Origin: Archangiaceae bacterium
GTDB taxonomy: Bacteria; Myxococcota; Myxococcia; Myxococcales; Myxococcaceae
Direction: 5' to 3'
DNA length: 32,963 bases
NCBI GenBank assembly: GCA_016879935.1
Contig: JAACJQ010000022.1
Location: 1-32,963, forward strand
In this document: piece after piece, positions 840 through 32,404 of the stretch
Layout of the letters: each line of letters starts with the position of its first letter
Numbering within the stretch: position 1 is the stretch's first letter
The notes under the pieces: model-generated
Databases searched by the model: none
Seen by the model: the letters and a program-made list of their open reading frames with translations, nothing else
Told to the model about the DNA's origin: nothing
Position numbers and translations under genes: made by a program

Positions 840-3506
840 ATGGCCTGCCTCGATGACGACACCCTGCTCGCGCTCTCGGGCGGCCACCTCGATGGGCCTG
901 CGCTGGAGACGGCCGAGCGTCACCTCGACGAGTGCGCGGCGTGCCGACGGGCCCTGGCGCTGGGGCTCGAGACGAGCGCGGCGCCGACCCGAGCGCCCGT
1001 GTTGACGGTGGGGAACACGATTGGCCGCTATGTCGTGCTCGAGCGCGTGGGCGCTGGCGCGATGGGCCAGGTGTTCGCCGCGTGGGACCCGCAGCTCGAC
1101 CGCAAGGTGGCGCTCAAGGTGCTCAAGAACGCCGCCTCGTCCGACGAGCACCAGGCGCGGTTGCTGCGGGAGGCGCAGACGCTGGCGCGCCTCTCACACC
1201 CGAACGTCGTCACCGTGTTCGACGTCGGCCGGTGGGAGGGCCAGCGCTTCATCGCGCTCGAGTTCGTCGACGGTGGCTCGGTGCGGGAGTGGCTCGGCGC
1301 CCAGAGCCGCGGCGTGAACGACGTCGTGGCGGTGTTCATTCAGGCCGGGCGTGGGCTCGCAGCGGCCCATCAGGCGGGCGTGGTGCATCGCGACTTCAAG
1401 CCCGACAACGTGCTCGTGCGTGGTGATGGCCGCGCGCAGGTGACCGACTTCGGGCTCGCGTCGGAGTCCGTCGGCCGAGTGGGTGACGGCCCGGTGCTCG
1501 AGCCAGGCGCGTCGCTCACGGGAACGGGCGCGCTGCTCGGCACGCCGGCGTACATGGCGCCCGCGCAGCTCGATGGAGAGCCCGCCACCGCCGCCTCCGA
1601 CCAGTTCGGCTTCTGCGTCGCGCTCTTCGAGGCGTTGACGGGTCAGCGGCCGTGGAGTGGCAACACCGTCGAGGCCCTGCGTCGCGCGATGCGAGATGGG
1701 CCGGCGCCGGCGTTCCCTTCGACGAGCGACGTGCCCGTGGCGATTCGCAAAGCGGTGCTGCGCGGCCTGTCGGTGCAGGAGGCGGCGCGCTGGCCGTCGA
1801 TGGTGGCGCTCGTCGAAGCGCTCGAGGCCGTCTCGCAGCGTCGTTCGTCGAGAGCCCTCGTCGTGGGGGTGGTGGCGGTCGTCGCGGGGCTGGCGCTGGT
1901 GTTCGGTCGCGCGAGCGTCGACACGGCGGCGAAGTGCCCTCCGAGCAGGGCGCGGCTCGCCGGCATCTGGGACGACGCCGTGCGCGGCAAGGTGAAGGCG
2001 GCCTTCGAGCCATCGACCGCTCCCTGGGCGCAGGCGCTGTCGGCCTCGGTGCTCACGGGTCTCGACGCCTACGCCGACGAGTGGGCACGGCTCCACACCG
2101 ACACGTGCGAGGCGACGTGGGTTCGCAAGGAGCAATCACCGCACGCGCTCGACCTGCGCATGCGCTGCCTCGACGAGCGTCGCAGTGAGCTCGCGGCGGC
2201 CACGCGGTACCTGAGCCAGTTGGAGCCAGGCGGCCTCGACCGCGCGCCGGGCGTGTTGCGTGGGTTGACCAGCCTCGAGCGCTGCAGCGACGCGATCCGG
2301 CTCGAGCGGCGCGCCGAGACGTTGTCTGCCGAAGCCGTCTCCTTCTCCGAGGCCACGCGCGCGAAGGTGCTCGAGGCGAAGGTGCTGCACGACAGCGGGC
2401 TGTTCCAGGAGGCCGAGGCCTCGTTGGCGCCCGTCACGCCGACGCTGTCTTCGGTGGCCGACCTCGCGGTTCAAGCCGAGGGCTGGTTCTGGGTGGGGAG
2501 CGTCGCGCTGAAGCGGGCGAACCACGACCTCGCCCGTGATGCGCTGAGCCGCGCCGTCACCACCGCGTCGGTCGGCGGGGTGAATGACGTGCTCTTGCGC
2601 GCGCTCTGTCAGCTCGTCGAACTCTCCACGCGTCTGCACGACGCCGAGCGCACGGCGGCTGCCCGCCAGCTCGTCACGCTCTCGCGACGGTCCATCGTGG
2701 GCGACGTCGAGCTCGAGGCCATCATCGAGAACCAGCTGGGGCTCGCCGCGTTCACCGAGGGGCACCTCGACGAGGCGCTCGAGCACTTCAGGGCGGCGCG
2801 CCGCGCCTACGAGGGCGTGAAGGGCCCGGGCGCGAAGAACGTGCTGCGCACCATCAACAACATCGGCGTCATCCTCTCGGAGCAGGGCAAGTCGGCCGAG
2901 GCGCTGGTCGAGGTGCAGGCGGCGCGTGACCTGCTCGTGGCCGAGTACGGAGACGCGCACCCCGACGTCGCCCGCGCCGAGGTGAACCTGGGCGTGATGT
3001 TCAACGACCTGTCGCGGTTCTCGGAGGCAGCGCCGCACTTCGAGCTCGCCGAGCGCATTCAGGTTCGCGCGCTGGGCGCCCGTCACCCCGAGCTCGCGGC
3101 AACGCACAACAACTGGGGCGACACCTGCATGGGCACGAAGGACTTCGCAGGAGCGCTGCGCCACTTCGAGACGGCCCTCTCGATTCGGGAAGAGGCGCTG
3201 GGCAAGAGTCACCTCCGGTTGATTGGCGATTTGAGCGGCGTCGCCTCGGCCCTGCTCGCGTTGGAGCGGCGGGAGGAGGCGGTGAGCGCCCTCGAACGAA
3301 TCGTCACGCTGCGCGCCACGGACGCAGCGCACCCGGTCGAGCTCGCGCGCGCCGAGGTGGAGCTGGCGAAGGCGCTCATCGTCACGTCTCCTGCACGTGC
3401 GCGCACGGTGTTCGGCTCGGCTGACGCGCACTTCGCGAAGGGTGGCACCGCGGCCGAGCCGGAGCGCCAGGCAGCGAAGGCATGGTTGAACGCCCGAGGG
3501 CAGTGA
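840..3506 (+). CDS. Ser/Thr protein kinase with N-terminal zinc-finger motif and C-terminal TPRs
   Basis: This 888-aa Hanks-type kinase has an unusual front end. Residues 3-35 contain Cys3 and an H-x3-C-x2-C motif (His28, Cys32, Cys35) like the zinc-binding anti-sigma (ZAS/zf-HC2) fold. The kinase domain spans about 62-330: glycine loop GAGAMG, ATP-binding Lys93 in VALK, catalytic Asp185 in HRDFKPDN, and Asp203 in DFG. A hydrophobic segment at about 338-358 should cross the inner membrane, placing the C-terminal half outside. Residues about 500-870 are helical TPR-type repeats, for example NNIGVILSEQGKSAEALVEV and NLGVMFNDLSRFSEAAPHF. The Glu of the APE motif is replaced by Ala242 (MAPAQL). 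The gene lies 12 bases after the DUF4476 gene. The substrate is unknown. The kinase assignment is firm, and a role in controlling a sigma factor is only an inference from the zinc motif. Confidence 0.92.
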   Translation: MACLDDDTLLALSGGHLDGPALETAERHLDECAACRRALALGLETSAAPTRAPVLTVGNTIGRYVVLERVGAGAMGQVFAAWDPQLDRKVALKVLKNAASSDEHQARLLREAQTLARLSHPNVVTVFDVGRWEGQRFIALEFVDGGSVREWLGAQSRGVNDVVAVFIQAGRGLAAAHQAGVVHRDFKPDNVLVRGDGRAQVTDFGLASESVGRVGDGPVLEPGASLTGTGALLGTPAYMAPAQLDGEPATAASDQFGFCVALFEALTGQRPWSGNTVEALRRAMRDGPAPAFPSTSDVPVAIRKAVLRGLSVQEAARWPSMVALVEALEAVSQRRSSRALVVGVVAVVAGLALVFGRASVDTAAKCPPSRARLAGIWDDAVRGKVKAAFEPSTAPWAQALSASVLTGLDAYADEWARLHTDTCEATWVRKEQSPHALDLRMRCLDERRSELAAATRYLSQLEPGGLDRAPGVLRGLTSLERCSDAIRLERRAETLSAEAVSFSEATRAKVLEAKVLHDSGLFQEAEASLAPVTPTLSSVADLAVQAEGWFWVGSVALKRANHDLARDALSRAVTTASVGGVNDVLLRALCQLVELSTRLHDAERTAAARQLVTLSRRSIVGDVELEAIIENQLGLAAFTEGHLDEALEHFRAARRAYEGVKGPGAKNVLRTINNIGVILSEQGKSAEALVEVQAARDLLVAEYGDAHPDVARAEVNLGVMFNDLSRFSEAAPHFELAERIQVRALGARHPELAATHNNWGDTCMGTKDFAGALRHFETALSIREEALGKSHLRLIGDLSGVASALLALERREEAVSALERIVTLRATDAAHPVELARAEVELAKALIVTSPARARTVFGSADAHFAKGGTAAEPERQAAKAWLNARGQ

Positions 3507-4064: not shown

Positions 4065-5270
4065 CTATTCTGGGCGGCCGACCTGATGCAGCGCCGCCGC
4101 GCGAAGCTGCTTCAGCGTGTTCGACGGCTTCTCACCCGACGCGTCATCGATGACCTGGAGCGCCTCGCTGCCGCGCCGCGCATCGATGAGCCGCCGTGCG
4201 ACGCGCTCGGGCCGCAAGAACCACACGAGGAAGGTCACCACGAGCGCGATGACCAGCGTCGACACGGCGCCGACCTTCCACTTCGGAATCGAGCGCGCCT
4301 GCGCGATGAGCCGGGTCTGCGCGTTCGCGACCCGCATCGCTCCGCTCACCGTCGAGGTGAGCTGAATCGGCTTGAGCGCGAGCCGTTCGAGAAACGCCGC
4401 GGCGGTGGGCGGGCGTGCGTCAGGGGCCTTCGCGAGACAGGCGGTGACGACGTCGACCAGCGCCGGAGCCGTCGCCAGGTGCGGCGCGACGTCGACGAGC
4501 GCGGGCGGAGCCTGATGAATCTGCTGAGAGACGAGCTCGCGCGGTGACGGCCCGGGGAAGGGCGCCTTGCCGGTGAGCATGCGGAACGCGATGAGCCCCA
4601 GCGCGTACAGGTCGCTGCGTGCGTCGAGCGTCTGTCCCATGGCCTGCTCGGGCGACATGTACTCGGGCGTGCCGACGACGAAGCCGGTCTGCGTCACCTG
4701 CGCGCGCTGGTCGGGCTCGGCGAGGCGCGCGATGCCGAAGTCGAGCACGCGCGCCTGCTCCTGACCGTCGGGCGAGCTGGTCAGCACCACGTTGTCGGGC
4801 TTGAGGTCGCGGTGAACGATGCCCTTGGCGTGAATGGCGGCGAGGCCCATGGCGAGCTGCCCGAGAATGCGCTCGGCGCGCTCGACCGACAGCGGCGCTT
4901 CGCGCTCGAGCAGTTGCTGCAGCGACTGGCCCTCGACGTACTCCATGACGAGGCACATCGACTGGCCGTGCTGGCCGAAGTCGATGACGCGCACGACGGC
5001 GGGGTGTTCGACCGACGAGAGCAGCAGCGCCTCGCGCCGAAACCGCTCGCCCATGCCCTGCGTGTTGAGCAGGTCGTCACGCAGCACCTTGAGCGCGACC
5101 TTGCGACCGAGCGAGACCTGCTCCGCGACGTAGACGAGGCCCATGCCGCCGCCGCCGAGCAGGCGCTCGACGCGAAAGCGGTCGCCCAGCACGAGGGAGC
5201 CAGGCGCAAAGGCTCCGCTGCCCGCCAGGTGGGTGTCGGCGACCGCTACGGGCTCTGAGTCCGTCGCCAT
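4065..5270 (-). CDS. Transmembrane Ser/Thr protein kinase, truncated by in-frame TAG
   Basis: The 401-aa product has a complete kinase domain at about residues 32-300: glycine loop GGGGMG, Lys61 in VALK, catalytic Asp155 in HRDLKPDN, Asp177 in DFG, and SPE at 206-208 in place of APE. A single transmembrane helix lies at about 333-352 (VGAVSTLVIALVVTFLVWFL). The sensor region outside the membrane stops after only about 50 residues at a TAG codon, although the same frame stays open for another 158 codons (3588-4064). The catalytic half should be intact, so the shortened protein may still work as a kinase that has lost most of its extracytoplasmic domain. It is divergent from the glycosyltransferase at 5417, with a 146-base gap that must hold both promoters. 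No strong Shine-Dalgarno is seen before the ATG. Confidence 0.88.
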   Translation of the reverse strand: MATDSEPVAVADTHLAGSGAFAPGSLVLGDRFRVERLLGGGGMGLVYVAEQVSLGRKVALKVLRDDLLNTQGMGERFRREALLLSSVEHPAVVRVIDFGQHGQSMCLVMEYVEGQSLQQLLEREAPLSVERAERILGQLAMGLAAIHAKGIVHRDLKPDNVVLTSSPDGQEQARVLDFGIARLAEPDQRAQVTQTGFVVGTPEYMSPEQAMGQTLDARSDLYALGLIAFRMLTGKAPFPGPSPRELVSQQIHQAPPALVDVAPHLATAPALVDVVTACLAKAPDARPPTAAAFLERLALKPIQLTSTVSGAMRVANAQTRLIAQARSIPKWKVGAVSTLVIALVVTFLVWFLRPERVARRLIDARRGSEALQVIDDASGEKPSNTLKQLRAAALHQVGRPE

Positions 5271-18613: not shown

Positions 18614-20416
18614 TCAAGCCCGGCTGCGGCGCCACATCGACAACAAGGTCACCACCACGGCGAGGTTCGTGAGCGTCTGCCAGATGAAGCGCGTCTCGGG
18701 GAACTTCAGCACCATCACCAGCGCGCCAAGGTACGCGAGCGGAATGGGCCAGGCCTGCTTCAACATCGAAACGGCGATGAGGCCCATCACGAAGCCCCAG
18801 TAGCCCATGAGAATGGGGCCCGAGTTGAAGCCCGCGCGGCCCGTCACGAGAACCCACGCAGTCAGCCCGGCTGCCTGCACGAGCCACGCGAAGATGAGCA
18901 CCGCCGAGAGCTGTCGATTGAGCGGCGTGAGAGACGCGCGGTAGCGGGTTCTGAGCGCGAGCAGCACGAGCCCCGAGACGAGCGCCATCGGCACCGACAG
19001 CACGCCTTCGAACTGCGGCAGACGCTGCACCGTGAAGGTGCCCATCATGGGCATCACGACCCAGATGACGCCGAGAATGGCAGCGGCGAGGAAGCGCGGC
19101 GTGCTGCCAGTGCGTGGATCCATCGCGAGCTCGAGCGAGTGGAGCCGCGTCTTGCGCAACTCTTCTTCCTCCACGGCGCGCGCGACCTCGGCGCTGAGCG
19201 TGTCATTGGTCGCGCCGAGCTCGGCGAGGTGCACCTGCGCCGCGTGAGGCGAACCACGGGCCAGCTCGAAGCGCACCATCGCCTCGATGGCGGTGCCCAG
19301 GCCCACGCGCGCGTCGTCGTTGTCAGGCCACTCGCGCAGGGCCTGCTGAAAACCGAAGCGGCACGCCGAGTACGCGCTCGCCACCGCCTCGATGTCGGGC
19401 GCTCCGGCGCGACACGCGTCCTCGAGTGAGCGCAGCCGGGCGGTGGCCTCAGCGGTGAGCAGCAGCGACCCCTGATGTGCCGCGAAGGCCTCGAGTGAGC
19501 GTCGAACCACCTCGGCGCTCGCGGGCCGCTTCGTCGCATCGGCGTGCATGCAGCGTCGAACGAGGTCAGCCAGCTCACGAGGTACCGAAGGTGAGAGCTG
19601 CGGCTCGGACTGCAGAATGCTCGCGAGCACTTCCGATGGAGTCGCGCGCAGGTGTGGCGGCTGACCGGTGAGCACCTCGAAGAGCACGGCGCCGAGCAGG
19701 TACACGTCGGTCGCGGCCGAGAGCACGCCGTCTCCGCCGAGCATTTCGGGAGCGGCGTACGCCGGTGTTCCCGCGAGCCCACGCGCAGGGCCGGGCGCCG
19801 TCGCGATGCCCCAGTCGACGAGGTACACCTCACCGAACGCACCGAGCATCACGTTGTCGGGCTTCACGTCGCGATGCACGAGCCCGCGAGCGTGGGCGAA
19901 GTGAAGCGCATGACAGACCTGGCCAAGCACGAGCAGGTGACGGGAGAGCGACTCCCGATGCAGCGTCGAGTCGACGAAGGCGGGGTTCTCGCGGAGCGCC
20001 TGCGACCACGAGCGCCCTTCGATGCGCTTCATCACCAACTCGGGCTGGCCATCGGGGAGCAGCCGGAGGCTGTAGACGGGAAGGATGTTGGGGTGCTCGA
20101 GGCGGCCCGTGCGCCACGCCTCGGCGACGAGCGCTTCGACGTCGGCTTCGTCTGCGCGGTCGGGACGGAGCGACTTCACCGCGACCTTCCGGTTCAGCGA
20201 CTGCTGTGTCGAGAGCCGAACCACGCCCATGCCACCTCGGCCGAGCAGGCCTTCGTCGGGGTACGTCTCGTGGCCGGCGAGGGCACGGAGTTGAGCGAGG
20301 GCACGAGCGCCTTCTTCTGCGTCACGTGGAGGCTCGACCGTCGAGCGTGGCCGACGAACGAGCGTCTCGGCCTGGTCTCCGAGCGTCGTCAGCAGCGCTT
20401 CGAGGGAGTCGCTCAT
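18614..20416 (-). CDS. Ser/Thr protein kinase with C-terminal multi-helix membrane domain
   Basis: The 600-aa product (numbered from the ATG at 20416; an ATG at 20431 adds five residues) has the kinase domain at about residues 55-320. Landmarks are GRGGMG, Lys81 in VAVK, catalytic Asp183 in HRDVKPDN, and a DWG (Asp201) in place of DFG, a known active variant in myxobacteria and related phyla, then APE at 222-224. A helical linker follows (about 340-450) and then about six hydrophobic segments to the end (for example AILGVIWVVMPMMGTF, LVSGLVLLALRTRY, AYLGALVMVLKF and LAVVVTLLSMW). The catalytic part is therefore N-terminal and cytoplasmic, with a membrane sensor behind it, the reverse of its neighbour at 20619. 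A TGCG microsatellite lies just upstream of the start. Neither ATG has a strong ribosome site. Confidence 0.9.
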   Translation of the reverse strand: MSDSLEALLTTLGDQAETLVRRPRSTVEPPRDAEEGARALAQLRALAGHETYPDEGLLGRGGMGVVRLSTQQSLNRKVAVKSLRPDRADEADVEALVAEAWRTGRLEHPNILPVYSLRLLPDGQPELVMKRIEGRSWSQALRENPAFVDSTLHRESLSRHLLVLGQVCHALHFAHARGLVHRDVKPDNVMLGAFGEVYLVDWGIATAPGPARGLAGTPAYAAPEMLGGDGVLSAATDVYLLGAVLFEVLTGQPPHLRATPSEVLASILQSEPQLSPSVPRELADLVRRCMHADATKRPASAEVVRRSLEAFAAHQGSLLLTAEATARLRSLEDACRAGAPDIEAVASAYSACRFGFQQALREWPDNDDARVGLGTAIEAMVRFELARGSPHAAQVHLAELGATNDTLSAEVARAVEEEELRKTRLHSLELAMDPRTGSTPRFLAAAILGVIWVVMPMMGTFTVQRLPQFEGVLSVPMALVSGLVLLALRTRYRASLTPLNRQLSAVLIFAWLVQAAGLTAWVLVTGRAGFNSGPILMGYWGFVMGLIAVSMLKQAWPIPLAYLGALVMVLKFPETRFIWQTLTNLAVVVTLLSMWRRSRA

Positions 20417-20494
20417 CGGCGCCCACAGCATGTCACGGCGCGCCCGGGCGAGATGTCAGCTCATGTGAGGTCGTTCGCGCGTCGTGACGAGGTG

Positions 20495-20618: not shown

Positions 20619-22208
20619 TCAACGCGCGGCGCGGCCATCACGCGTGGTGCCATCACGATTCACCGTCACCGTCGCTTCATGACTCGCTGGTGCCGATGGT
20701 GCTTGTGCGGGCGCCGCTGACTTCACCGTCGCGAGCGCCTCGACGAGCGCCCGCTGGCCGTGCGGCCACGGAGCGTTCGGCCCTTCGAGCTGCCGCAGCC
20801 GCTGCGAGACCAGCCGCGCCGACGGGACCCGCTTCGCCACGTCGCGCTCGAGCAGCGACGAGACGAGCGCATCGACCTCGGGTGGAACCGAAGGCCGCTC
20901 GACGGACGGCGCGGGCAGCGGCGCTTCGAGCAGCGCACGCACCAGTGCCACGTCGTTCTCTGCCGAGAAGAGCCGCCGGCCGGTGAGAATCTCGAACGCG
21001 GTCGCGCCGAAGGCGAACAGGTCCCACGAGGGCAGGGGCTCCAGCGCATCGAGCTGCTCCGGCGCCATGTACGCGAGCTTGCCGCGCACCGTGCCCGTCG
21101 CCGTCAGGCCGCCCGAGGCCTGCCAGCGCGCCACGCCGAAGTCGCTGATCTTCACCTCTCCCGTACGCGAGAGCAGCACGTTCGGCGGGTTCACGTCGCG
21201 ATGCACGAGGCCCACCGAACGGCCATCGGGCGATGGCTTCTCGTGCAGGTACGCGAGCCCTTCGGCGACCTCCGCGATGATGAAGAGGCACGCTGGCAGC
21301 GGCACGAACTCGGCCCGCTCACGATGCGCGCGCAGCAGCGCCGACAAGGTGATGCCGTCGACGAACTCCATCGCGAGAAACCACGAGTCGAGGTGCCGGC
21401 CGAAGTCGAGCACCTGCACGAGGTTCGGGTGGGCCAGCGTCGCGCCCAGCTCGGCCTCACGGCGGAACAACGCCACGAACTGCTCGTCGCTCGCGTGCGA
21501 CGGCAGCACGCGCTTCACCGCCACCTTTCGCTCGAAGCCACCCTCGGGTGAGTAGGTCGCGGTGAACACCTCGGCCATGCCGCCCGCGCCGATGCGCTCG
21601 CCCAGCACGTACTTCCCCGCGAAGTCCTTGCGGCGTGACTCCTCGACGAGGGTGCGCACGCGCGAGACGAGGTACCCGCAGCCGATGCCCACGAGGGTCG
21701 TCGTCAGCGCGGGCCCGACGAACTCAGAGGTGGGCGCGTTCACCGCCGCGAGCAGCACGCCCAGGCTGATCAACGCCGAGACCGTCGCGAGCGCGATGGA
21801 GGCCAGGTCGAGCGCCACCGCCGCCAGCACGATGCCCGCGCAGAGCGCCGGAGCCAGGGAGCCAATCAGGTAGATGGGCTGGGCCATCGACGGAATCGCC
21901 GAGAGCGAGACGAGGCACAACGCAGGCAGGTCGAGCAGACCCACGGCAACGCCCGAGTACGGCAACACCGCCGGCCACTTTATGGTCAGCCCCAGTAGCC
22001 CGAGCGCGATGAGCGTGTAGACCGAGAAGAAGGGGAGCGTGGCGTTCCAGTCGGGCAGCTGCTCGACCTTCGCGTAGTACGCCGTCATCAGCAGGTACGC
22101 CGCCGCGCCGAGCGCCCGCAGCCGCACCAGCACCCGCGCCGTCTTGCCTCGCTCGTCTCGAATGAGCCGCTGAAGGTGCTCGCGCACCGAGCGGTTGAGC
22201 GTCGTCAT
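20619..22208 (-). CDS. Membrane Ser/Thr protein kinase with N-terminal multi-helix domain
   Basis: The 529-aa product begins with a basic helix and about six hydrophobic segments (residues 30-182, for example VYTLIALGLLGLTI, GLLDLPALCLVSLSA, GIVLAAVALDLASIAL and GPALTTTLVGIGCGYLV). The kinase domain follows at about 198-470. Landmarks are GAGGMA, Lys232 in VAVK, catalytic Asp338 in HRDVNPPN, Asp356 in DFG and APE at 382-384. The usual Lys two residues after the catalytic Asp is Asn340. This substitution is seen in a myxobacterial subgroup (HRDVSPxN and HRDVNPxN) and need not abolish activity. The last 50 residues are Ala/Pro-rich. A lipoprotein gene lies 40 bases upstream on the same strand, so the two may share a transcript. 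Confidence 0.92.
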   Translation of the reverse strand: MTTLNRSVREHLQRLIRDERGKTARVLVRLRALGAAAYLLMTAYYAKVEQLPDWNATLPFFSVYTLIALGLLGLTIKWPAVLPYSGVAVGLLDLPALCLVSLSAIPSMAQPIYLIGSLAPALCAGIVLAAVALDLASIALATVSALISLGVLLAAVNAPTSEFVGPALTTTLVGIGCGYLVSRVRTLVEESRRKDFAGKYVLGERIGAGGMAEVFTATYSPEGGFERKVAVKRVLPSHASDEQFVALFRREAELGATLAHPNLVQVLDFGRHLDSWFLAMEFVDGITLSALLRAHRERAEFVPLPACLFIIAEVAEGLAYLHEKPSPDGRSVGLVHRDVNPPNVLLSRTGEVKISDFGVARWQASGGLTATGTVRGKLAYMAPEQLDALEPLPSWDLFAFGATAFEILTGRRLFSAENDVALVRALLEAPLPAPSVERPSVPPEVDALVSSLLERDVAKRVPSARLVSQRLRQLEGPNAPWPHGQRALVEALATVKSAAPAQAPSAPASHEATVTVNRDGTTRDGRAAR

Positions 22209-22248
22209 CGCGACGCGAGTTGAGCACTCCTCGGCCCGCGATGCCTCT

Positions 22249-23091
22249 TCAGTGCGCGAGCAGCTTCACGCACGCCGCGTCGTCGCGGGCCCCGACGGTG
22301 GGAGGCATCGAGGCTCCGACCATGAAGCCCGTCTGGTCCTTGAAGAACTTCGAGCGCTCGTCCTTCTCGAAGTAGACGTAGGTGCAGGTGTCGCCCTCGA
22401 CGACGGCCCAGGCGAACTGCGTCTCGGTCGCGGCGGTCGGCTTGCCGAGCGACTTCTCGAACAGCGCGTAGGCCTTGTCGAAGTCGTCGAAGGGCTTCGC
22501 CTTGTTCTTCATCTTCAGCAGCAGCTTCGACGTCAGCGCTCCCGAGAAGGGCGGCGGCTCGGAGTTGTCGATGGCAGCGAGCGTGAAGTCGATGCCCGTC
22601 AGCGGCGCGCCCTTCAGCGACAGCACCTTCGCGTCTTTGCCCTCGACGCTCGCGGTGGGCGTGCCCGTGTAGAAGCCGGCGAAGTCGTACGACGGGTTCG
22701 GCGCCATCGTCGACTTGCCCGTCTTCTTGAAGTTCGCCTGCGCCTCGAGAATCTCCGCCTTCATCTTCGCCATCGTCTCGCTGCCGTACACGCGCGCCGA
22801 GATGGTGACGTCGCCGTCGGCGAGCCCCTTGATGACGAAGTCGAGCTTCTTCGCGTTGGCCGTGAGGTCGAGGGCCTTCATGCCGTTCGCGCCGTCGAGG
22901 TCGGGCACCGTGCTGCCGTACTTCGTCGACCAGGCCACCTGCACCCGCGCCCCGGCCTGCAGCTCCTGGGGGAACGTCACCGACCCCTGCACCGTGTTGG
23001 GCCCGGGCTGGAGCGTGTTCTCGAGGGTCAACACCTGCGGCTTCGCGCACGCAGCGAGGGAAAGCAGAGCAGCGACGGCCAGCGTCTTCAT
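22249..23091 (-). CDS. Predicted lipoprotein, unknown function
   Basis: The 280-aa product starts MKTLAVAALLSLAAC with a good lipobox (LAAC, Cys15). The ATG at 23091 follows a GGAAAG ribosome site. The mature protein looks mainly beta in its first 110 residues (VQGSVTFPQELQAGARVQVAW, then GLADGDVTISARVYG), which could be an immunoglobulin-like domain. It then has mixed segments ending in an aromatic-rich stretch (FAWAVVEGDTCTYVYFEKDE) and one Cys near the end. I do not recognise the family. It lies 40 bases upstream of the multi-helix kinase on the same strand, making it a possible sensor or cargo partner; this is position-based only. It is divergent from the fadN-like gene, with 198 bases between. 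Confidence 0.8.
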   Translation of the reverse strand: MKTLAVAALLSLAACAKPQVLTLENTLQPGPNTVQGSVTFPQELQAGARVQVAWSTKYGSTVPDLDGANGMKALDLTANAKKLDFVIKGLADGDVTISARVYGSETMAKMKAEILEAQANFKKTGKSTMAPNPSYDFAGFYTGTPTASVEGKDAKVLSLKGAPLTGIDFTLAAIDNSEPPPFSGALTSKLLLKMKNKAKPFDDFDKAYALFEKSLGKPTAATETQFAWAVVEGDTCTYVYFEKDERSKFFKDQTGFMVGASMPPTVGARDDAACVKLLAH

Positions 23092-23176
23092 CGGGTCTTT
23101 CCGCCAGGGCGAGGGGCCGAAGCTGCCGTCTCTGACCCTCCGCGCTCCCGAGGTGTGCAGATTCTCAGCGGTTATT

Positions 23177-23196
23177 GTCTCCGGTGGAGACTTTTT
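23177..23196 (+). promoter_or_regulatory. Terminator-like hairpin or operator in the fadN leader
   Basis: GTCTCC-GGT-GGAGAC-TTTTT: a perfect 6-bp stem with a 3-base loop, directly followed by five T. On the plus strand this has the layout of a small intrinsic terminator, yet no plus-strand gene ends here. The next start is fadN-like at 23290, and the lipoprotein diverges at 23091. It could be a leader attenuator, or the inverted repeat could be a repressor operator for the fatty-acid genes. Confidence 0.4.
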
Positions 23197-23289
23197 GCGC
23201 CAATCGTCTCGAAATGCCTGCCGACCGTGACTCGCTGCGCTATGGATCCGGCCGCTTCGCTCTCGTTTTCCACTCACCTGGAGCCGTTC

Positions 23290-25677
23290 ATGAAGATCCG
23301 CAAGGTGGCCGTTCTCGGCGCGGGCGTGATGGGCAGCGGCATTGCCGCGCACCTCGCCAACGCTGGTATTCCCGTTCTTCTGCTCGACATCGTGCCGCCG
23401 AAGGCCGAGCCGACCGACAAGACCGACTCGAAGGCGTTTCGCAACAAGTTCGCCAACTCTGCCGTCGCGAACCTCGTGAAGCAGAAGCCCGCGCCGCTGA
23501 TGACGCAGAAGGCGCTCGCGCTCATCGACGTCGGAAACTTCGAAGACGACCTCGCGCGCGTGAAGGACTGCGACTGGGTGGTCGAGGTCATCAAGGAAGA
23601 CCTCAAGCTCAAGAACGACCTCTTCCGGAAGCTCGAGAAGATCGTGCACCCCAACGCCATCGTCAGCTCGAACACGTCGGGCATGAGCATCAAGGGCATG
23701 ACCGAGGGCACCAGCGACGACTTCAAGAAGCGCTTCCTGGTGACGCACTTCTTCAACCCCGTTCGCTACATGAAGCTGCTCGAGCTCGTCGCGGGCGAGA
23801 AGACCGACCCGGCGATCTTGAAGCGCGTGCACGACTTCGGTGAGCGCACCCTCGGCAAGGGCATCGTCTACGGGAAGGACACGACCAACTTCATCGCCAA
23901 CCGCATCGGCACGTACGCGATGATGCGCACGCTCCAGCTGATGGATCAGCACGGCCTGTCGATCGAAGAGATCGACAAGATCTTCGGGCCCGCCATGGGC
24001 CGCCCGTCGTCGGCCGTCTTCCGCACCGCCGACCTCGTCGGCCTCGACACGTTCTTCCACGTGACGAAGAACTGTTACGACTCGCTGCCGAACGACGAGG
24101 CCCGTGAGACGTTCAAGGCGCCCGCGTTCCTCGAGAAGATGATCGAGAAGAAGATGCTCGGCGACAAGACGCAGGGCGGCTTCTACAAGAAGCAGAAGGG
24201 CGGCGAGGGCGAGAAGGAGATTCTCGTGCTCGACCTGAAGACCCTCGAGTACCGCGCGCAGAACAAGGTGCGCTTCGAGTCGCTCGGCGCCGCGAAAGAC
24301 GTCGAAGAGCTGCCCGAGCGCATTCGCACCGTCATGAACGGCAGCGACAAGGCCGCGAAGTTCGCCGAGCAGGTGACGCTCGATGCGCTGGCCTACGCCT
24401 CGCGCCGCCTCGGAGAGATCGCGGACGACTACGTGAACATCGACCGCGGCATGCGTTGGGGCTTCGCGTGGGACCTCGGGCCGTTCGAGACCTGGGACGC
24501 GTACGGCGTCGAGAAGGGCGTCAAGCGCATGAAGGAGCTCGGCATCGCCGTGGCTCCGTGGGTCGACGAGATGCTCAAGAGCGGCCGCACCAGCTTCTAC
24601 GGGCGCGACGGCCTCAACGACACGTACTGGGACGTGAAGACGAAGTCGTCGAAGCCGGTCGAGCGCATCGCGCGGCAGATCACCGTCGAGGTGCTCAAGC
24701 GCGGCAACAAGAAGGTCGACGGCAACGAGTCGGCCACGCTCTGGGACATGGGCGACGGCGTGCTGCAGCTCGAGCTGCACACCAAGATGAACAGCATCGA
24801 CACGCTGATCATCGAGATGATGAACAAGGCCGTCGACGTCGCCGAGAAGGACTACCGCGGCATCGTCGTCGGCAACGACGGCGCGAACTTCTCGGCCGGC
24901 GCGAACATCGCGATGCTGCTCTGGGCCATCAAGGACGGGCAGTGGGAAGACGTTCGCAAGCTCGTCGGAGGCTTCCAGCAGGCGAACCAGCGGCTGCGCT
25001 ACTCGTCGATTCCGGTGGTGACCGCGCCCTTCCAGCTCACGCTGGGCGGCGGCGCCGAGCTCACGATGGCGGGTAACTTCGTGCAGGCGGCGGCCGAGAC
25101 GTACATCGGCCTCGTCGAGGTCGGCGTCGGCCTGATTCCCGGCGGCGGCGGCAACCTGCAGATGCTCCGCAACCTCTACGGCATGCACCAGGGCTCGAAG
25201 GACATGGACGCGCTGCCCTTCCTCAAGAAGGCGTTCTTGAACATCGGCACCGCGAAGGTCGCGACCAGCGCCGAAGAGGCGAAGGAGGCCGGCTTCTTCA
25301 CCCCGAAGGACGGCATCTCGATGTCGCGCGACCACCAGCTCGCCGACGCCAAGGCCGTCGCCATCGGTCTCGCCGAGGGTGGCTTCCGCCCGCCGCGCGC
25401 AGCGACGTTCTACCTGCCCGGCAAGAGCGGCGCGGCCACCATCGACATGATGCTGTACGACATGCAGCTCAACCATCAGATCAGCGAGCACGACCGGCTC
25501 ATCGGCCGCAAACTCGCGAGCGTGCTGACGGGCGGAGACACCTCGGCGTCGGTGCCCACCACCGAAGCGCGGCTGCTCGAGCTCGAGCTCGAGGCCTTCC
25601 TCTCGCTGTGCGGCGAAGAGAAGACCCAGGCGCGCATCGAGCACTTGCTCACGAAGGGCAAGCCGCTGCGCAACTGA
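23290..25677 (+). CDS. fadN: 3-hydroxyacyl-CoA dehydrogenase/enoyl-CoA hydratase, FadN type
   Basis: This 795-aa bifunctional beta-oxidation enzyme hydrates trans-2-enoyl-CoA and oxidises the 3-hydroxyacyl-CoA with NAD, in the cytoplasm. The dehydrogenase comes first: the Rossmann motif GAGVMGSG begins at residue 10, and catalytic His153 lies in THFFNPVRYMKLLELV. The hydratase part comes last: catalytic Glu590 in GGGAE and Glu610 in LVEVGVGLIPGGGG, plus the oxyanion region NDGANFSAGANI. This order and length match Bacillus FadN (about 790 aa) and are the reverse of E. coli FadB/FadJ. The frame is open far upstream, but the ATG at 23290 has a GGAG ribosome site 6 bases before it and starts directly at MKIRKVAVLG. 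The thiolase gene follows after 100 bases, its functional partner. Confidence 0.93.
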   Translation: MKIRKVAVLGAGVMGSGIAAHLANAGIPVLLLDIVPPKAEPTDKTDSKAFRNKFANSAVANLVKQKPAPLMTQKALALIDVGNFEDDLARVKDCDWVVEVIKEDLKLKNDLFRKLEKIVHPNAIVSSNTSGMSIKGMTEGTSDDFKKRFLVTHFFNPVRYMKLLELVAGEKTDPAILKRVHDFGERTLGKGIVYGKDTTNFIANRIGTYAMMRTLQLMDQHGLSIEEIDKIFGPAMGRPSSAVFRTADLVGLDTFFHVTKNCYDSLPNDEARETFKAPAFLEKMIEKKMLGDKTQGGFYKKQKGGEGEKEILVLDLKTLEYRAQNKVRFESLGAAKDVEELPERIRTVMNGSDKAAKFAEQVTLDALAYASRRLGEIADDYVNIDRGMRWGFAWDLGPFETWDAYGVEKGVKRMKELGIAVAPWVDEMLKSGRTSFYGRDGLNDTYWDVKTKSSKPVERIARQITVEVLKRGNKKVDGNESATLWDMGDGVLQLELHTKMNSIDTLIIEMMNKAVDVAEKDYRGIVVGNDGANFSAGANIAMLLWAIKDGQWEDVRKLVGGFQQANQRLRYSSIPVVTAPFQLTLGGGAELTMAGNFVQAAAETYIGLVEVGVGLIPGGGGNLQMLRNLYGMHQGSKDMDALPFLKKAFLNIGTAKVATSAEEAKEAGFFTPKDGISMSRDHQLADAKAVAIGLAEGGFRPPRAATFYLPGKSGAATIDMMLYDMQLNHQISEHDRLIGRKLASVLTGGDTSASVPTTEARLLELELEAFLSLCGEEKTQARIEHLLTKGKPLRN

Positions 25678-25691
25678 GCCGATGACGACGG

Positions 25692-25717
25692 GCGCCTGCT
25701 GCCGAATGGGCAGGCGC
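25692..25717 (+). promoter_or_regulatory. Hairpin in the fadN-fadA gap
   Basis: GCGCCTGC (25692-25699) and GCAGGCGC (25710-25717) form a perfect 8-bp stem with a 10-base loop, 14 bases after the fadN-like stop. No T-run follows. It may lower read-through into fadA or protect the 3' end of the upstream message from decay. Confidence 0.45.
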
Positions 25718-25777
25718 TCTGGCTGCAATCACAGAAACCCTCACTACCTTTGCTGCTGAAGAAAGAAGGAGATCCTC

Positions 25778-26947
25778 ATGGCTGAGAGAGTCGTCATCGC
25801 CAGCACCGCCCGTACGCCGTTCACCCGCGCCAACAAGGGCGAGCTCAAAGACACGCGCCCCGACACGATGGCAGCACACGTCATCAACGCGGCCATCGAG
25901 CGCGTGCCGGGCCTGAAGAAGGAGCAGATCGAAGACGTGGTGCTCGGCTGCGCGATGCCCGAAGCAGAGCAGGGCATGAACGTGGCGCGCATCGCGACGT
26001 TGCTCGCCGGGCTGCCCGACAGCGTGCCGGCGATGACCATCAACCGCTTCTGCGCGTCAGGCGTGCAGTCGATCGCGCAGATCGCCGCGGGCATTCAGGC
26101 CGGGCACTACTCGGTCGGCATCGGTGGCGGCACCGAGACGATGACGCTCGTGCCCATGGGCGGCAACAAGGTCTCGGCGAACCCCGAGCTGATGGAGAAG
26201 TTCCCCGAGGTCTACACCTCGATGGGCGCGACGGCCGAGAAGGTGGCGGCGAAGTGGAACGTGACGCGCGCTGATCAAGACGCGTTCGCGCTCGAGTCGC
26301 AGAAGCGTGCGGCGGCCGCGCGTGAGACGGGCAAGTTCAAGGACGAGATTGCTCCCATCAAGGTGAAGTACTTCGACGACGGTGGCGCGGCGCGTGAAGT
26401 GACGCTCGCCGACGACACCATTCTTCGCCCTGAGACGACGCTCGACGGCCTGAACAAGCTGAAGCCGGCGTTCGACTCGAAGGGCACGGTGACGGCAGGG
26501 AACGCGTCTCCGCTGACCGACGGCGCTGCGGCGGCGGTGCTCATGAGCGAGTCGAAGGCGAAGGAGCTGGGCGTGAAGGCGCTCGGCTACTTCGTCGACT
26601 ACACGGTCGCGGGTGTTCCGCCCGACATCATGGGCATCGGCCCGGTGCCGGCGGTGCGCAAGCTGCTCGAGCGCAACAAGCTGACCGTGAAGGACATCGA
26701 CCTGTTCGAGCTGAACGAGGCGTTCGCGGCGCAGGGCCTGTACTGCGCGCGTGAGCTCGGCATTCCGGCCGACAAGCTGAACGTGAACGGCGGCGCCATC
26801 GCGCTCGGTCACCCGCTCGGCGTCTCGGGCGCGCGCCTGGTCGGAACGATTCTGCGTGAGCTCAAGCGTCGTGGCGGCAAGCGCGGCGTCGTCACCATGT
26901 GCATCGGTGGCGGCATGGGCGCTGCGGCCCTCATCGAAGTGGCCTGA
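25778..26947 (+). CDS. fadA: Acetyl-CoA acyltransferase (3-ketoacyl-CoA thiolase)
   Basis: The enzyme cleaves 3-ketoacyl-CoA with CoA to give acetyl-CoA, the last step of each beta-oxidation round. The 389-aa length is normal for the family. Catalytic residues are in place: nucleophile Cys92 in NRFCASG, the NEAFA loop, His345 in [11 protein letters not shown], and Cys375 in CIGGGMG. The ATG at 25778 has a strong AAGGAG ribosome site 7 bases upstream. It follows the fadN-like gene on the same strand after 100 bases that contain a hairpin, so the two form a fadNA unit. A strong intrinsic terminator follows the stop. It has no signal peptide and is cytoplasmic. Confidence 0.95.
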
Positions 26948-27867: not shown

Positions 27868-30800
27868 GTGCGCCTCCTGCTGCTCTCCGCACTCCTCGTC
27901 TCGGCCGTCGCCTCCGCCGCACCACCCTCAGACGAGCTGCCCGCCGCGCTGCGCGACTGGAGCGGCTGGGTGCTGCACGGCGAGAAGCAGGTCGGCTGCC
28001 CCTTCGTGAACGGCTCCGAGGTGCGGCTGTGCGCGTGGCCTGCGCAGCTCACGCTCTCGCTCGACGACAAGGGCGGCACGTTCAGCCAGCGCTTCCGCAT
28101 CTACCGCGAGGCCTTCCTCACCTTGCCCGGCGACGCGAAGCACTGGCCGCAGAACGTGAAGGTCGACGGCAAGGCCGCCATCGTCGTGCCGGGCGGCGAT
28201 GGGCTCCCGACGGTGAAGCTCGGCATCGGCGAGCGCTCCGTCACCGGCGACTTCTCGTGGGACACGCTGCCTGAGGCGCTGCTCGTGCCGCCCGCCACCG
28301 GCCTCGTCGCCTTGAAGCTCAAGGGCACCGACGTGCTGCTGCCCAACCGCGACACCGAAGGCCGCGTCTTCCTGCAGAAGGAGGGCGCCGCGCAGGAGGC
28401 CGAGAACCTCGACATCACCGTTCACCGTCAGCTCGTCGACGACATTCCAGCGCGGCTCATCACGCAGGTCTCGCTGCAGATTTCAGGCAAGAGCCGCGAA
28501 GTGGTGCTGGGCCGTGCGCTGCCCGCAGGCTTCTCACCGATGTCACTCACGAGCGCCTTGCCGGTGCGTCTCGAGTCAGACGGCAAGCTTCGCCTGCAGG
28601 TGCGGCCCGGCTCCTTCGTCATCGAGCTCGTGGCCCGCAGCGAAGGCCCCATCACCACGCTCAAGCGCCCCGCGCCCGAAGGCCCGTGGATGGAGGACGA
28701 CGAGGTGTGGACGTTCGATGCGCGCCCGTCGCTGCGTCAGGTGCTCGTCGAAGGCGTGAAGCAGGTCGACCCGCAGCAGACGACGCTGCCCGCGGAGTGG
28801 AAGCGCTTCCCCGCGTACGCGATGTCGCTCGACGACTCGATGCAGCTCACCGAGCGCCGCCGCGGAGACTCGGACCCGGCGCCCGACGCGCTCTCACTCA
28901 CGCGCACGCTCTGGCTCGACTTCGACGGCAAGGGCCTCACCGCGAACGACCGCATCAGCGGGCCGCTCCATCGCTCGTGGCGCCTCGACATGCAGGAGGG
29001 CACCGAGCTCGGCCGCGTCGTCACCGCGGGCTCCGACCAGTTCATCACGCGTATGCCCGGCGCTCAGGCAGGCGTCGAGCTGCGTGAAGGCCAGCTCACG
29101 CTCGAAGCCGACAGCCGCATCGTCACGCCGCTCTCGGCCATTCCCGCCGTTTCGTGGAACGCCGACTTCACCTCGGTGCGCACGACACTCCAGCTGCCGC
29201 CGGGGTGGACGCTGGTGAGCGCGTCGGGAGCCGACTCCGTGCCCGATACGTGGATGCAGCGGTGGACGTTGCTCGACCTCTTCCTCGTGCTCATCATCTC
29301 GCTCGCGATGGGTCGGCTCTTCGGCTGGCCCTTCGCCGGCCTCGCGCTCGTCGCGTTGACGCTGGGCTGGCTCGAAGACGACTCGCCGCGCTTCGTGTGG
29401 CTCGTGGTGCTGGTGCTCGAGGCCATCTTCCGGCTGCTGCCCGAGCACTGGCTCAAGTCGGTGTTCCGCTGGTCGCGCTTCGCCGCGTGGGCCGCGCTCG
29501 TCGTCATCACCGTCTCGTTCATGGTCGACCACGTGCGCCACGGCATGTACCCGGGCCTCGCGCGCGAGATGTCGTACGGCGGCGTGCAGAGCTGGTCCGA
29601 CTACTCGAGCGAGAACGAGGTGCAGTACCAGCGCAGCATGACGGTCGAGCCCTATGGCGGCGGCGGTGGGCCCGGTCAGAACGACGACCTCGAGCAGGAG
29701 GAGTCGGGCATGTTCGACCTGCAGAAGAAGGAGGCTGCTCCCGAGAAGCCGCGCGCCGCGTCGACGCCGCAGGCCCAGCAGTTCAAGCAGCAGCTCAACC
29801 GCAGAAAGGTCGCCACGCGCGACTACGACAAGACGGTGCTCGTGCAGACGGGCCCGGGCCTTCCGCGCTGGAACTGGAAGGAGATTCCCATTCACTACTC
29901 GGGGCCGGTGGAGCGCACGCAGACGTTGTCGCTCTTCCTGCTCGGGCCCGGCGCGAACCTGGTGCTCGCCTTCGTGCGCGCGCTGCTCTTCGCGTTGCTG
30001 GTGCTGACGGTGCTCGGCTTCCCCGGCTCGTTCTGGCCGTCGTTCTTCAAGAAGGCGCGTGGGCCGGCCGTCGCGGGGCTGCTCGTGCTCGGCGTGCTGG
30101 TGCCGACGCTCGCGCGCGCTGACGAGGTACCGAATGAGGCGATGCTGAACCAGCTCAAGGAGCGGCTGCTCGAGAAGCCCGCGTGCGCGCCGCAGTGTGC
30201 GTCGTCTCCGCGGCTCATGCTCGAGGCCACGCCGACGACGTTGCGGCTGCGCATCGAGGTGCTCGCAGGCGCCGCCACCGCCGTTCCCCTGCCCGGCAAC
30301 GAGAAGCACTGGCTGCCGCGCACCGTCGTCGTCGATGGAAAGCCGGCGAGCGGGCTCAGCCGCGGTGACGACGGCGTGTTGCTGCTCGCGGTCGACGAAG
30401 GCGCGCATCAGGTGCTGCTCGAAGGACCGCTGCCGCCGCGTGACACGGTGCAGGTGCCGCTGCCGTTCAAGTCGTATCGCGTGGAGTCGAAGGTCGACGG
30501 GTGGACGCTCGACGGCGTTCACGAAGACGGCGTCGCCGACGAGAACCTGCAGCTGTCGCGCAAGGCCGACAACGTGAAGGGCTCGGGCGCGGCGCTCCAG
30601 AGTGGAACGCTGCCGCCGTTCGTCGTCATCGAGCGCACGTTGTCGCTCGGGCTCACCTGGTCGGTCGAGACGCGCGTCGAGCGCCTCACGCCGACGGGCT
30701 CGGCCGTGGTGCTGGAAGTGCCGCTGCTCGCGGGAGAGTCGGTGACGTCGAGCGACGTGCGCGTGCAGAACGGCAAGGCGCTGGTGAACATGCCGGCGAG

Positions 30801-32010
30801 CGCGACCGAGCTGAGCTGGACGAGCGTGCTCGAGGCGAAGTCGCCCATCGCGCTCACCGCCGCAGAAGGCACGCCGTGGGTCGAGGTGTGGCGCGTCGAC
30901 ATCAGCCCCGTGTGGCACGCCGAGTGGTCCGGCATTCCCGTGGTGCATCAGCCGAACGAGGTCGGCCCGCGCGTGCCCGAGTGGCGCCCGTGGCCGAAGG
31001 AGTCGGTCACCCTCGAGGTCGTCAAACCCGACGGCGTGCAGGGGCAGACGCTCACCATCGACCAGTCGCGGCTCGAGGTGGCTCCGGGCGTGCGCGCGAC
31101 CGATGTGACGTTCACCGCGAACTTCCGCTCGTCACGCGGCGGCCTGCACCCGTTCACGCTGCCCGACGATGCGCAGCTGCAGAGCGTCACCATCAACGGG
31201 CAGACGCAGCCGATTCGGCAAGAGGGGCGTGCGGTGTCGATTCCGCTGGTGCCCGGTTCGCAGTCCATTCAGCTCGTGTGGCGTCAGACGAGCGGGCTGC
31301 CGGCTTCGTGGACGACGCCCGCGCTCGGGCTCGGGTTCTCGACGGTGAACGCCGAGCTGCAGGTGCGCATGCCGAGCGACCGGTGGGTGCTCTTCGTGAC
31401 GGGGCCGCGCATGGGGCCGGCGGTGTTGTTCTGGAGCTTCCTGCTCGTGTTGCTCGTCGTGTCGGTGGGCCTGGGCCGCTCGAGGTACGCGCCGGTGAAG
31501 ACGTACCAGTGGGTGCTGCTCGCGCTCGGGCTCTCGCAGCTGCCCATCGTCGCCATCGCGGCGGTGTTCGGCTGGCTGCTGCTCGTCGCGTGGCGTGAAC
31601 GCGTGACGGTCGACGGCGTGGCGAGCTTCAACTTCCGGCAGCTGGTGCTCGTCGGCGCGACCGGCATCGCGCTCATCATTCTCGGCGTGTCGGTGTACTC
31701 GGGCCTGCTCGGGCAGCCAGAGATGCAGGTGCAGGGCAACGGCTCGAGCGCGTCGTGGCTGCGATGGTTTCAGGACCGCACGACGACCGACTTCCCGCAG
31801 GCGTGGGTCTTCTCGGTGCCGATGCTCGTGTACCGCGGCGCGATGCTGGCCTGGAGCCTGTGGATGGCGCTGGCCCTGCTCTCGTGGCTCAAGTGGGCGT
31901 GGAAGGCGTTCTCGCTCGGTGGGTTGTGGAAGCAGTCGCCGCCGAAGCCGCCGAAGAGCCCGCCGGTCGCTCCGGCTCCGCCTGCTGCACCGCCCGCTCA
32001 GCCGAGCTGA
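27868..32010 (+). CDS. Large multi-pass envelope protein with internal duplication
   Basis: The 1380-aa product starts (GTG 27868, GGAG ribosome site 7 bases before) with a signal sequence MRLLLLSALLVSAVASA. Residues about 25-460 are beta-rich and periplasmic. A membrane cluster lies at about 467-560 (LLDLFLVLIISLAMGRLFGW and others), a polar Gln/Glu/Pro loop at about 590-650, and two more hydrophobic segments at about 690-751, the second ending like a signal peptide (VPTLARADE). A second beta-rich region spans about 760-1180, followed by a last membrane cluster at about 1184-1350 and a proline-rich tail. LPGDAKHW (residue 86) recurs as LPGNEKHW (808), each followed by a VDGK strand. Similar large proteins of unknown function exist in other proteobacteria. 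The frame is open from 27631, but only 27868 gives the signal peptide. Confidence 0.85.
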   Translation: MRLLLLSALLVSAVASAAPPSDELPAALRDWSGWVLHGEKQVGCPFVNGSEVRLCAWPAQLTLSLDDKGGTFSQRFRIYREAFLTLPGDAKHWPQNVKVDGKAAIVVPGGDGLPTVKLGIGERSVTGDFSWDTLPEALLVPPATGLVALKLKGTDVLLPNRDTEGRVFLQKEGAAQEAENLDITVHRQLVDDIPARLITQVSLQISGKSREVVLGRALPAGFSPMSLTSALPVRLESDGKLRLQVRPGSFVIELVARSEGPITTLKRPAPEGPWMEDDEVWTFDARPSLRQVLVEGVKQVDPQQTTLPAEWKRFPAYAMSLDDSMQLTERRRGDSDPAPDALSLTRTLWLDFDGKGLTANDRISGPLHRSWRLDMQEGTELGRVVTAGSDQFITRMPGAQAGVELREGQLTLEADSRIVTPLSAIPAVSWNADFTSVRTTLQLPPGWTLVSASGADSVPDTWMQRWTLLDLFLVLIISLAMGRLFGWPFAGLALVALTLGWLEDDSPRFVWLVVLVLEAIFRLLPEHWLKSVFRWSRFAAWAALVVITVSFMVDHVRHGMYPGLAREMSYGGVQSWSDYSSENEVQYQRSMTVEPYGGGGGPGQNDDLEQEESGMFDLQKKEAAPEKPRAASTPQAQQFKQQLNRRKVATRDYDKTVLVQTGPGLPRWNWKEIPIHYSGPVERTQTLSLFLLGPGANLVLAFVRALLFALLVLTVLGFPGSFWPSFFKKARGPAVAGLLVLGVLVPTLARADEVPNEAMLNQLKERLLEKPACAPQCASSPRLMLEATPTTLRLRIEVLAGAATAVPLPGNEKHWLPRTVVVDGKPASGLSRGDDGVLLLAVDEGAHQVLLEGPLPPRDTVQVPLPFKSYRVESKVDGWTLDGVHEDGVADENLQLSRKADNVKGSGAALQSGTLPPFVVIERTLSLGLTWSVETRVERLTPTGSAVVLEVPLLAGESVTSSDVRVQNGKALVNMPASATELSWTSVLEAKSPIALTAAEGTPWVEVWRVDISPVWHAEWSGIPVVHQPNEVGPRVPEWRPWPKESVTLEVVKPDGVQGQTLTIDQSRLEVAPGVRATDVTFTANFRSSRGGLHPFTLPDDAQLQSVTINGQTQPIRQEGRAVSIPLVPGSQSIQLVWRQTSGLPASWTTPALGLGFSTVNAELQVRMPSDRWVLFVTGPRMGPAVLFWSFLLVLLVVSVGLGRSRYAPVKTYQWVLLALGLSQLPIVAIAAVFGWLLLVAWRERVTVDGVASFNFRQLVLVGATGIALIILGVSVYSGLLGQPEMQVQGNGSSASWLRWFQDRTTTDFPQAWVFSVPMLVYRGAMLAWSLWMALALLSWLKWAWKAFSLGGLWKQSPPKPPKSPPVAPAPPAAPPAQPS

Positions 32011-32333
32011 CGCTTGATGGTCCTGATGTCGTCCTCGCACTGCTCGACGCGAGGGCGCAGGTCGTTCGTCTGTTTGAGGAACGACGTCAACTCACGCACG
32101 TTGCCCGCGAGGTCGGTGATGGCCGTCGCGGTGCGAATCTCGGACTCGACGATTCGGCGAGAGAGCTCTTCGCGCATCTGGTCGACGTGCTCCGAGAGGG
32201 AGTCGACTCGACCAGAGAGGGTCTCAGCGAGTGCATCGAGCCGGGCGTTCGTGTCGTCGATGCGCTCATTCGTCTTGCGACCCTCGTCGCGAATGCCCTT
32301 CAAGATCTCGATGGTGAGGTCGGTTGGTTCCAT
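31998..32333 (-). CDS. Small coiled-coil protein
   Basis: The 111-aa product is nearly all alpha-helical coiled coil: heptad-like NERIDDTNARLDALAETLSGR, VDSLSEHVDQMREELSRR, and a final LRPRVEQCEDDIRTIKRQLG. There are no membrane segments or signal. The start is taken as the ATG at 32333 because related small myxobacterial proteins begin MEPTDLTIEILK; ATGs at 32363 and 32375 would add 10-14 residues, and none has a strong ribosome site. The last 13 bases overlap the convergent end of the 1380-aa gene. The helix pattern suggests an oligomer or partner-binding protein; function unknown. Confidence 0.7.
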   Translation of the reverse strand: MEPTDLTIEILKGIRDEGRKTNERIDDTNARLDALAETLSGRVDSLSEHVDQMREELSRRIVESEIRTATAITDLAGNVRELTSFLKQTNDLRPRVEQCEDDIRTIKRQLG

Positions 32334-32404
32334 GACGAACGCTCTATCAGCCGGGTCTGACATCGAGTGGAGCACCCCTCAGACGTCGGATGCAACCGCG
32401 CCTC

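Follow-up and report, generated by a model that had tools for sequence, protein, structure and literature searches.

Introduction

According to the available text of PMC7226087, Ost1 (ribophorin I) is a non-catalytic subunit of the oligosaccharyltransferase (OST) with two similar luminal domains, which consist mainly of beta-sheet, and a single membrane helix, and it is reported to bind glycosylated peptides. The accessible part of a second report lists Ost1 from eukaryotes and from TACK and Asgard archaea (PMC11417166). Here, we analyze a bacterial protein of 1380 residues whose halves, in predicted structure, resemble chains of the OST complex. Its gene lies in a stretch of 32,963 nucleotides from an Archangiaceae bacterium (Myxococcota; assembly GCA_016879935.1, contig JAACJQ010000022.1, positions 1 to 32,963 of the forward strand), referred to below as the window. 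For comparison, FbcH of Bradyrhizobium is the precursor of both cytochrome b and cytochrome c1. The protein described here is composed of two ancient copies of one module, arranged head to tail, and we consider it reasonably likely that signal peptidase I splits this duplicated module into two subunits, which would form a non-catalytic scaffold in the periplasm.

Homology of the two halves

The gene is translated from 27868 to 32007 without an internal stop and begins with a GTG codon. Its frame is open already from 27631; we chose the GTG at 27868 as the presumed start because a signal peptide comes next and because tblastn matches (L043-L045) start at its first residue. Copies with 83-86% identity are found in three metagenome-assembled genomes (MAGs) labelled as myxobacteria, and the sole other match to the protein in its own genome (9.5 Mb) has an E-value of 0.57.

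An initial annotation, made from the letters of the DNA, had described the protein as two joined copies of one module, each with an LPGxxKHW motif, a VDGK motif, a WxL strand and a membrane-helix cluster. These elements stand where it placed them: LPGDAKHW at residues 86-93 and LPGNEKHW at 808-815, VDGK at 99-102 and 822-825, the corresponding strands at W447-T-L and W1173-V-L, and the two membrane-helix strings at residues 466-486 and 1173-1193. The double LPGxxKHW motif did not arise in any of 20,000 shuffled versions of the protein.

By BLASTP, the halves share one significant match, which covers 27 residues (56% identity, E = 5e-4). For profile comparison with hhalign, the halves were taken as residues 1-724 and 725-1380, with the reversed second profile and column shuffles as controls. 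Profiles of 14 full-length rows aligned over 477 columns (52-560 with half-2 columns 50-556; score 101.6, P = 1.2e-11), compared with 23.5 for the reversed profile and 28.8 for the best of 100 column shuffles, and moving the cut to 730/731 gave P = 4.3e-11. The score was 130.2 with 24 rows (P = 4.1e-15; reversed 22.4) and 125.7 with 59 rows (P = 2.5e-14; reversed 25.5; best of 60 shuffles 27.6). A second diagonal is therefore present in the self-comparison at the profile level, as the two-copy proposal predicted. An additional search matched residues 776-849 of half 2 to the half-1 part of the relative L101 (E = 7e-4).

Three beta domains, D1 to D3, make up the periplasmic part of each half, and each aligns with its counterpart: D1 with P = 7.5e-12 (24 rows), D2 with 8.6e-5 and D3 with 2.1e-4 (59 rows), the reversed controls giving 0.59, 0.31 and 0.16, respectively. 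Some of the results speak against a duplication of the complete module. The profile signal sits mostly in D1, and 14-row profiles without D1 score 28.4 (P = 0.0055), at most equal to the best shuffles; without D1, the P-value improves with the number of rows, to 4.8e-4 with 24 and 3.3e-4 with 59. Moreover, neither the helix cluster nor the later hairpin nor the last helix gave a signal above the reversed control between halves (24 and 59 rows), and extending D3 by the hairpin did not raise the profile score. Thus, the periplasmic parts of the two halves are homologous, and since the sequence supports this part only, duplication of the membrane part rests on predicted structure. The membrane part is predicted to share the duplication, the best sign being an apparent insertion point common to the models of both halves.

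Predicted structure and fold likeness

AlphaFold2 models of each half were built from 24-row alignments. The half 1 model has a mean predicted local distance difference test (pLDDT) of 77 and a predicted template modeling score (pTM) of 0.51, and the half 2 model has values of 81 and 0.46. Because pTM is low in both, the arrangement of the domains is uncertain, which weighs against reading the models as whole assemblies. The order of elements is equal in the two models (short helix, strands of D1 to D3, four membrane helices, two strands and one last helix), with half 1 differing by low-confidence helices in its linker. Together with the matching of both halves to the same solved folds, this agrees with the common fold expected in the initial annotation. 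Invariant cysteines in the 24-row alignment lie close to the start of D1 in each half (C44 and C55; C773 and C777).

Among structures in the PDB (Foldseek was also run), the top match of half 2 is the OST-complex chain 8agb_E (Z 15.4, root-mean-square deviation (rmsd) 23.8, 310 aligned residues), and half 1 matches the OST-complex chain 6ezn_A (Z 12.1, rmsd 14.4, 290 aligned). The structure search names the OST complex only; we take both chains to be Ost1. The large rmsd indicates that the domains match and that their arrangement does not. For a tandem of M1-N-like domains close to the membrane, a trait of Ost1, the evidence is these Z values set against the large rmsd and the low pTM. The N-terminal domain of M1 aminopeptidases and LTA4 hydrolase matches half 2 with Z 14.0 (4pw4; rmsd 2.8, 149 aligned) and half 1 with Z 11.9 (1z1w; rmsd 3.1, 141 aligned), so that the two matches of half 1 tie in Z. 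The predicted models of both halves contain the N-terminal saddle sandwich of M1 aminopeptidases, and the HExxH zinc motif is present in none of 59 family members. The match to this domain begins in D3 (at 335 in half 2 and 339 in half 1) and ends in the hairpin that follows the helices (at 593 and 692). Judged from these first and last aligned residues only, the membrane bundle appears to be inserted before the last hairpin of the D3 sandwich.

For the 1380-residue protein, no match reached the cut-off in Pfam, in NCBIfam or among PDB sequences. Pfam searches gave no match to Ost1/ribophorin I, either for the protein (E-value limit 10) or for 24 members (limit 1); half 2 has no match to PDB sequences at E up to 10, and half 1, searched with an E limit of 1, matches only a sodium channel at E = 0.8. 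Weak Pfam matches to Glucodextran_B and Anula_coat were rejected, as they lie below their cut-offs. A relation to CreD was also rejected: searches of the protein against Pfam (E-value limit 10) and NCBIfam (limit 1) gave no CreD match, and hhalign of the halves to CreD-like proteins did not exceed the reversed control. D3 of half 2 is homologous to exported proteins that adjoin CreD-like genes in L158 and L159 (P = 1e-8; reversed 0.27). These pairs of an exported protein and a CreD-looking inner-membrane neighbor, whose best CreD E-value of 0.15 is far below the cut-off, are encoded on the minus strand at L158:1617-2780 with L158:2753-4042 and at L159:2760-4070 with L159:4066-5409; the L159 pair adjoins genes rich in CxxCH motifs. 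Both internal duplication and internal signal peptides are familiar features. In the literature searched, as far as its text was accessible, no description was found of the two combined, of the interrupted sandwich or of the family.

A candidate signal peptidase I site at the joint

Between the halves, a charged loop is followed by a short hydrophobic segment that ends in ARA-DE. Its last part, VPTLARADE (residues 745-753), had been recognized in the initial annotation as a signal-like end ahead of half 2. We examined this joint in 59 distinct full-length members, defined by a frame of at least 1250 residues that spans both profile ends; truncated copies and copies identical over the compared stretch were excluded. 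The tripeptide [AVSTG]xA, abbreviated AxA below, is found at the joint in 57 of the 59, and D, E or Q comes next in 44. At nine other helices the tripeptide occurs in 10-42 members and the combination with D, E or Q in 0-8; the corresponding counts for the N-terminal signal peptide are 49 and 12. In 2,000 shuffles within the compared segments, AxA reached a mean of 40.6 (maximum 51) and the combination a mean of 9.0 (maximum 21), again out of 59. AxA followed by a D/E/Q start is a strong sign of a signal peptidase I site at the joint. A751 is conserved to at least 90% in the 24-row alignment, and a conserved site of this predicted type between two products is the mark of an internal-signal polyprotein. 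Because AxA is kept in nearly all 59 members, the signal-like end before half 2 is probably more than a relic, and the cell probably cuts the protein at the joint into two partner proteins.

Several observations temper this view. AxA alone is a weak sign, because the joint segments are rich in alanine, and it also follows the first transmembrane helix (TM1) in 42 members and the last helix in 40. The two members without it end in PRA and VFG, and the 59-row alignment spreads the joint alanine over columns 751 and 752. The cut itself is deduced from sequence.

Distribution and split genes

The family has matches in 34 of 195 Myxococcota genomes, 30 of which carry both halves in one frame, either whole or cut by a contig end; four of these 30 (G021, G043, G052 and G111) have one stop counted inside the frame. 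The remaining four were not accepted as intact or split members. G008 and G065 are D3-only matches and represent another family; half 2 of G056 stands alone in a fragmented genome, with an abrupt start and without a signal peptide, and we read it as chimeric or decayed; and in G184 (L102) the gene is broken over several frames, being either decayed or poorly assembled.

A gammaproteobacterial sample comprised 369 genomes of the class to which G195 belongs, a MAG labelled Gammaproteobacteria from which L054 comes. Here the family is present in 54 genomes, with both halves in one frame in 44, either complete or truncated at a contig end. Among the other ten, G230 alone has the halves as two intact genes (L139:7443-9584 and L138:5852-7909), which lie on two different contigs and do not reach the end of either. 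This natural split falls at the joint: the half-1 gene encodes 713 residues and stops after the last helix, and the half-2 gene encodes 685 residues and opens with its own signal peptide. Breaks in G385, G498 and G501 are at contig ends, and we read G430 (two overlapping frames on one contig) and G226 (overlapping frames by coordinates) as frame shifts; G308, G377, G490 and G555 were judged from coordinates alone.

The initial annotation had suggested a fusion of two secreted genes and a search for genomes in which the halves are separate. Such genes do exist, in one of the 54 gammaproteobacterial genomes with a match. In the trees of each half, however, G230 falls in a five-member clade together with the fused proteins L120, L123, L053 and L055 (support 0.999 and 0.997, midpoint rooting). 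Since it is nested among fused proteins, the split looks secondary, having apparently arisen later at the joint, and it does not establish that separate genes came before the fusion.

A copy on plasmid pAZKH of Azoarcus sp. KH32C (L161:11911-16005) has the joint AQA-Q and overlaps an isoaspartyl peptidase gene by 4 bases; this one annotated record, WP_015452075.1, is named as a hypothetical protein. In G332 (L151:7605-13784, minus strand), the stop-to-stop frame is 2060 residues long, with about 670 residues ahead of the family part. A viral or phage origin was rejected, as a pattern search of viral contigs and the phages gave no match and the Azoarcus copy was the one plasmid match.

Alternative explanations

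Convergence of two unrelated beta-rich proteins, combined with a chance motif, could account for a BLASTP match limited to 27 residues, for a profile signal that is mostly D1 and for membrane parts that fail to align. It is nevertheless extremely improbable as the source of the likeness, given that the profile alignment is collinear and far above its controls, that D2 and D3 still align when D1 is removed (24 and 59 rows), that the signal persisted as rows rose to these numbers, and that both halves match the same folds. A doubtful, though conceivable, alternative accepts the duplication and regards the protein as uncut, the internal signal-like segment being an ordinary membrane helix in one working chain of 1380 residues. 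The prevalence of the single frame in both taxa would suit such a chain, as a cut product would not strictly need the fusion, and so would the frequency of AxA alone in alanine-rich helices. What this leaves unexplained is that AxA with D, E or Q is frequent at the joint helix only, at 44 members against no more than 8 at any of the nine others, and that the halves are two intact genes in G230.

As to function, we propose a non-catalytic periplasmic scaffold or holding complex because of the fold and the absence of HExxH. This role, drawn as it is from the fold, is the weakest step of the explanation, and the gene neighborhood lends it no help: with neighbors clustered by similarity and not by family name, no cluster is shared by more than 7 of 44 loci, and these 44 include duplicate copies. 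A bacterial Ost1, that is, an accessory subunit holding the glycosylated protein for an STT3/PglB-type oligosaccharyltransferase, is suggested by the first rank of OST chains for both halves, shared in Z with the M1 domain for half 1. We regard it as highly improbable: STT3 has no match at E 0.001 in the organism's own genome (95% complete) and is not more common in carriers (4 of 34 Myxococcota genomes with a family match, two of the 34 being other-family matches, versus 16 of 161 without; Fisher P = 0.76), the family has no sequence match to Ost1, and each half has several predicted helices instead of one. An envelope protein linked to surface-protein export by the exosortase/PEP-CTERM system appears very unlikely. 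Exosortase is somewhat more common in gammaproteobacterial carriers (27 of 54) than in non-carriers (100 of 315; Fisher P = 0.013, in a test that ignores shared ancestry), but half of the carriers do without it, and the clustering of neighbors by similarity shows no conserved neighbor of any kind.

Feature map and neighboring genes

Table 1. Features of the duplicated-module gene, in residues of the protein and positions of the window.
Feature	Residues	Position	Strand	Basis
Whole gene, presumed GTG start	1-1380	27868..32010	+	ORF and translation
N-terminal signal peptide	1-19	27868..27924	+	Hydropathy, alignment; cleavage predicted
Half 1 periplasmic beta region: D1 with LPGDAKHW/VDGK, D2, D3	20-462	27925..29253	+	Profile alignments, AlphaFold2 model, motifs
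Half 1 membrane-helix cluster (model helices 468-485, 487-500, 508-523, 528-560)	466-560	29263..29547	+	Hydropathy, model
Variable linker, probably disordered (pLDDT <50 over 569-666)	561-659	29548..29844	+	Alignment, model
Half 1 conserved QTGPGLPRW segment: hairpin strands 671-676 and 686-692, which appear to close the D3 sandwich; last helix 694-716		29845..30021	+	Alignment, model, fold match
Short charged inter-module loop, predicted cytoplasmic	719-732	30022..30063	+	Sequence; predicted topology
Internal signal-peptide-like helix, ...VPTLARA	731-751	30058..30120	+	Hydropathy, joint statistics
Predicted signal peptidase I site	A751/D752	30118..30123	+	Joint conservation; cleavage predicted
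Half 2 periplasmic beta region: D1 with LPGNEKHW/VDGK, D2, D3	752-1178	30121..31401	+	Profile alignments, model, motifs
Half 2 membrane-helix cluster	1188-1281	31429..31710	+	Hydropathy, model
Half 2 conserved PEMQVQGNGS segment: hairpin strands 1297-1305 and 1313-1318; last helix 1319-1349		31717..31914	+	Model, fold match

An open reading frame (ORF) of 125 codons on the minus strand (31998-32375) shares 13 bases with the 3' end of the gene. Elsewhere, the window contains four protein kinase (Pkinase) genes (840-3506, 4065-5270, 18614-20431 and 20619-22208) and, at 22195-26947, a thiolase gene preceded by a gene whose product has 3-hydroxyacyl-CoA dehydrogenase and enoyl-CoA hydratase domains.

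Discussion

In the explanation that we favor, one gene would encode a tandemly duplicated inner-membrane module. Each module would comprise a signal peptide, the three periplasmic beta domains, about four membrane helices, a hairpin and a last helix, with the hairpin returning after the helices to complete the membrane-proximal D3 sandwich. The second module would open with an internal signal peptide, and signal peptidase I would most likely cut both AxA sites; a single translation product would thereby yield two homologous membrane subunits at a ratio of 1:1 that stay together. The subunit pair, with its Ost1/M1-N-like predicted fold and without the metalloprotease motif, would then most likely serve in the periplasm as a scaffold or client-holding complex without catalytic activity. 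A bolder and tentative reading, which we think is rather less than probable, is that of a widespread bacterial membrane polyprotein in which a duplicated Ost1-like module, its sandwich interrupted by helices, is cut into a matched client-holding pair, as an analogue of the luminal Ost1 platform.

The protein is kept in two bacterial phyla, and neither Pfam nor NCBIfam holds a family model for it. Should the internal signal peptide be cleaved, the protein would give a bacterial example in which a single gene supplies two homologous membrane subunits as a matched pair. The Ost1/M1-N-like fold, if present in bacteria, would also bear on the origin of the OST accessory subunit, given the range listed for Ost1 (PMC11417166), and it is of interest even as a mere likeness.

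Several known systems share parts of this predicted architecture. The exported proteins of L158 and L159 have a domain like D3 of half 2; they are about 390-440 residues long, lack a second half and are encoded beside a separate CreD-like membrane protein. In each half, the likeness to the N-terminal domain of M1 aminopeptidases and LTA4 hydrolase extends over D3 and the hairpin after the helices. Unlike M1 aminopeptidases, however, the family has neither HExxH nor a Pfam peptidase match, and the domain appears to be interrupted by membrane helices. Ost1, presuming that the OST chains are correctly identified, is the best-ranked fold match for both halves. In contrast to Ost1, the present protein is bacterial and duplicated, with several predicted helices per half that are apparently inserted in the last sandwich, and the family shows neither a sequence match to Ost1 nor a link to STT3. 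Finally, FbcH is a bacterial membrane protein made as one chain, which contains an internal signal peptide and is cut into two subunits; FbcH joins unrelated subunits, whereas the present protein joins copies of one module.

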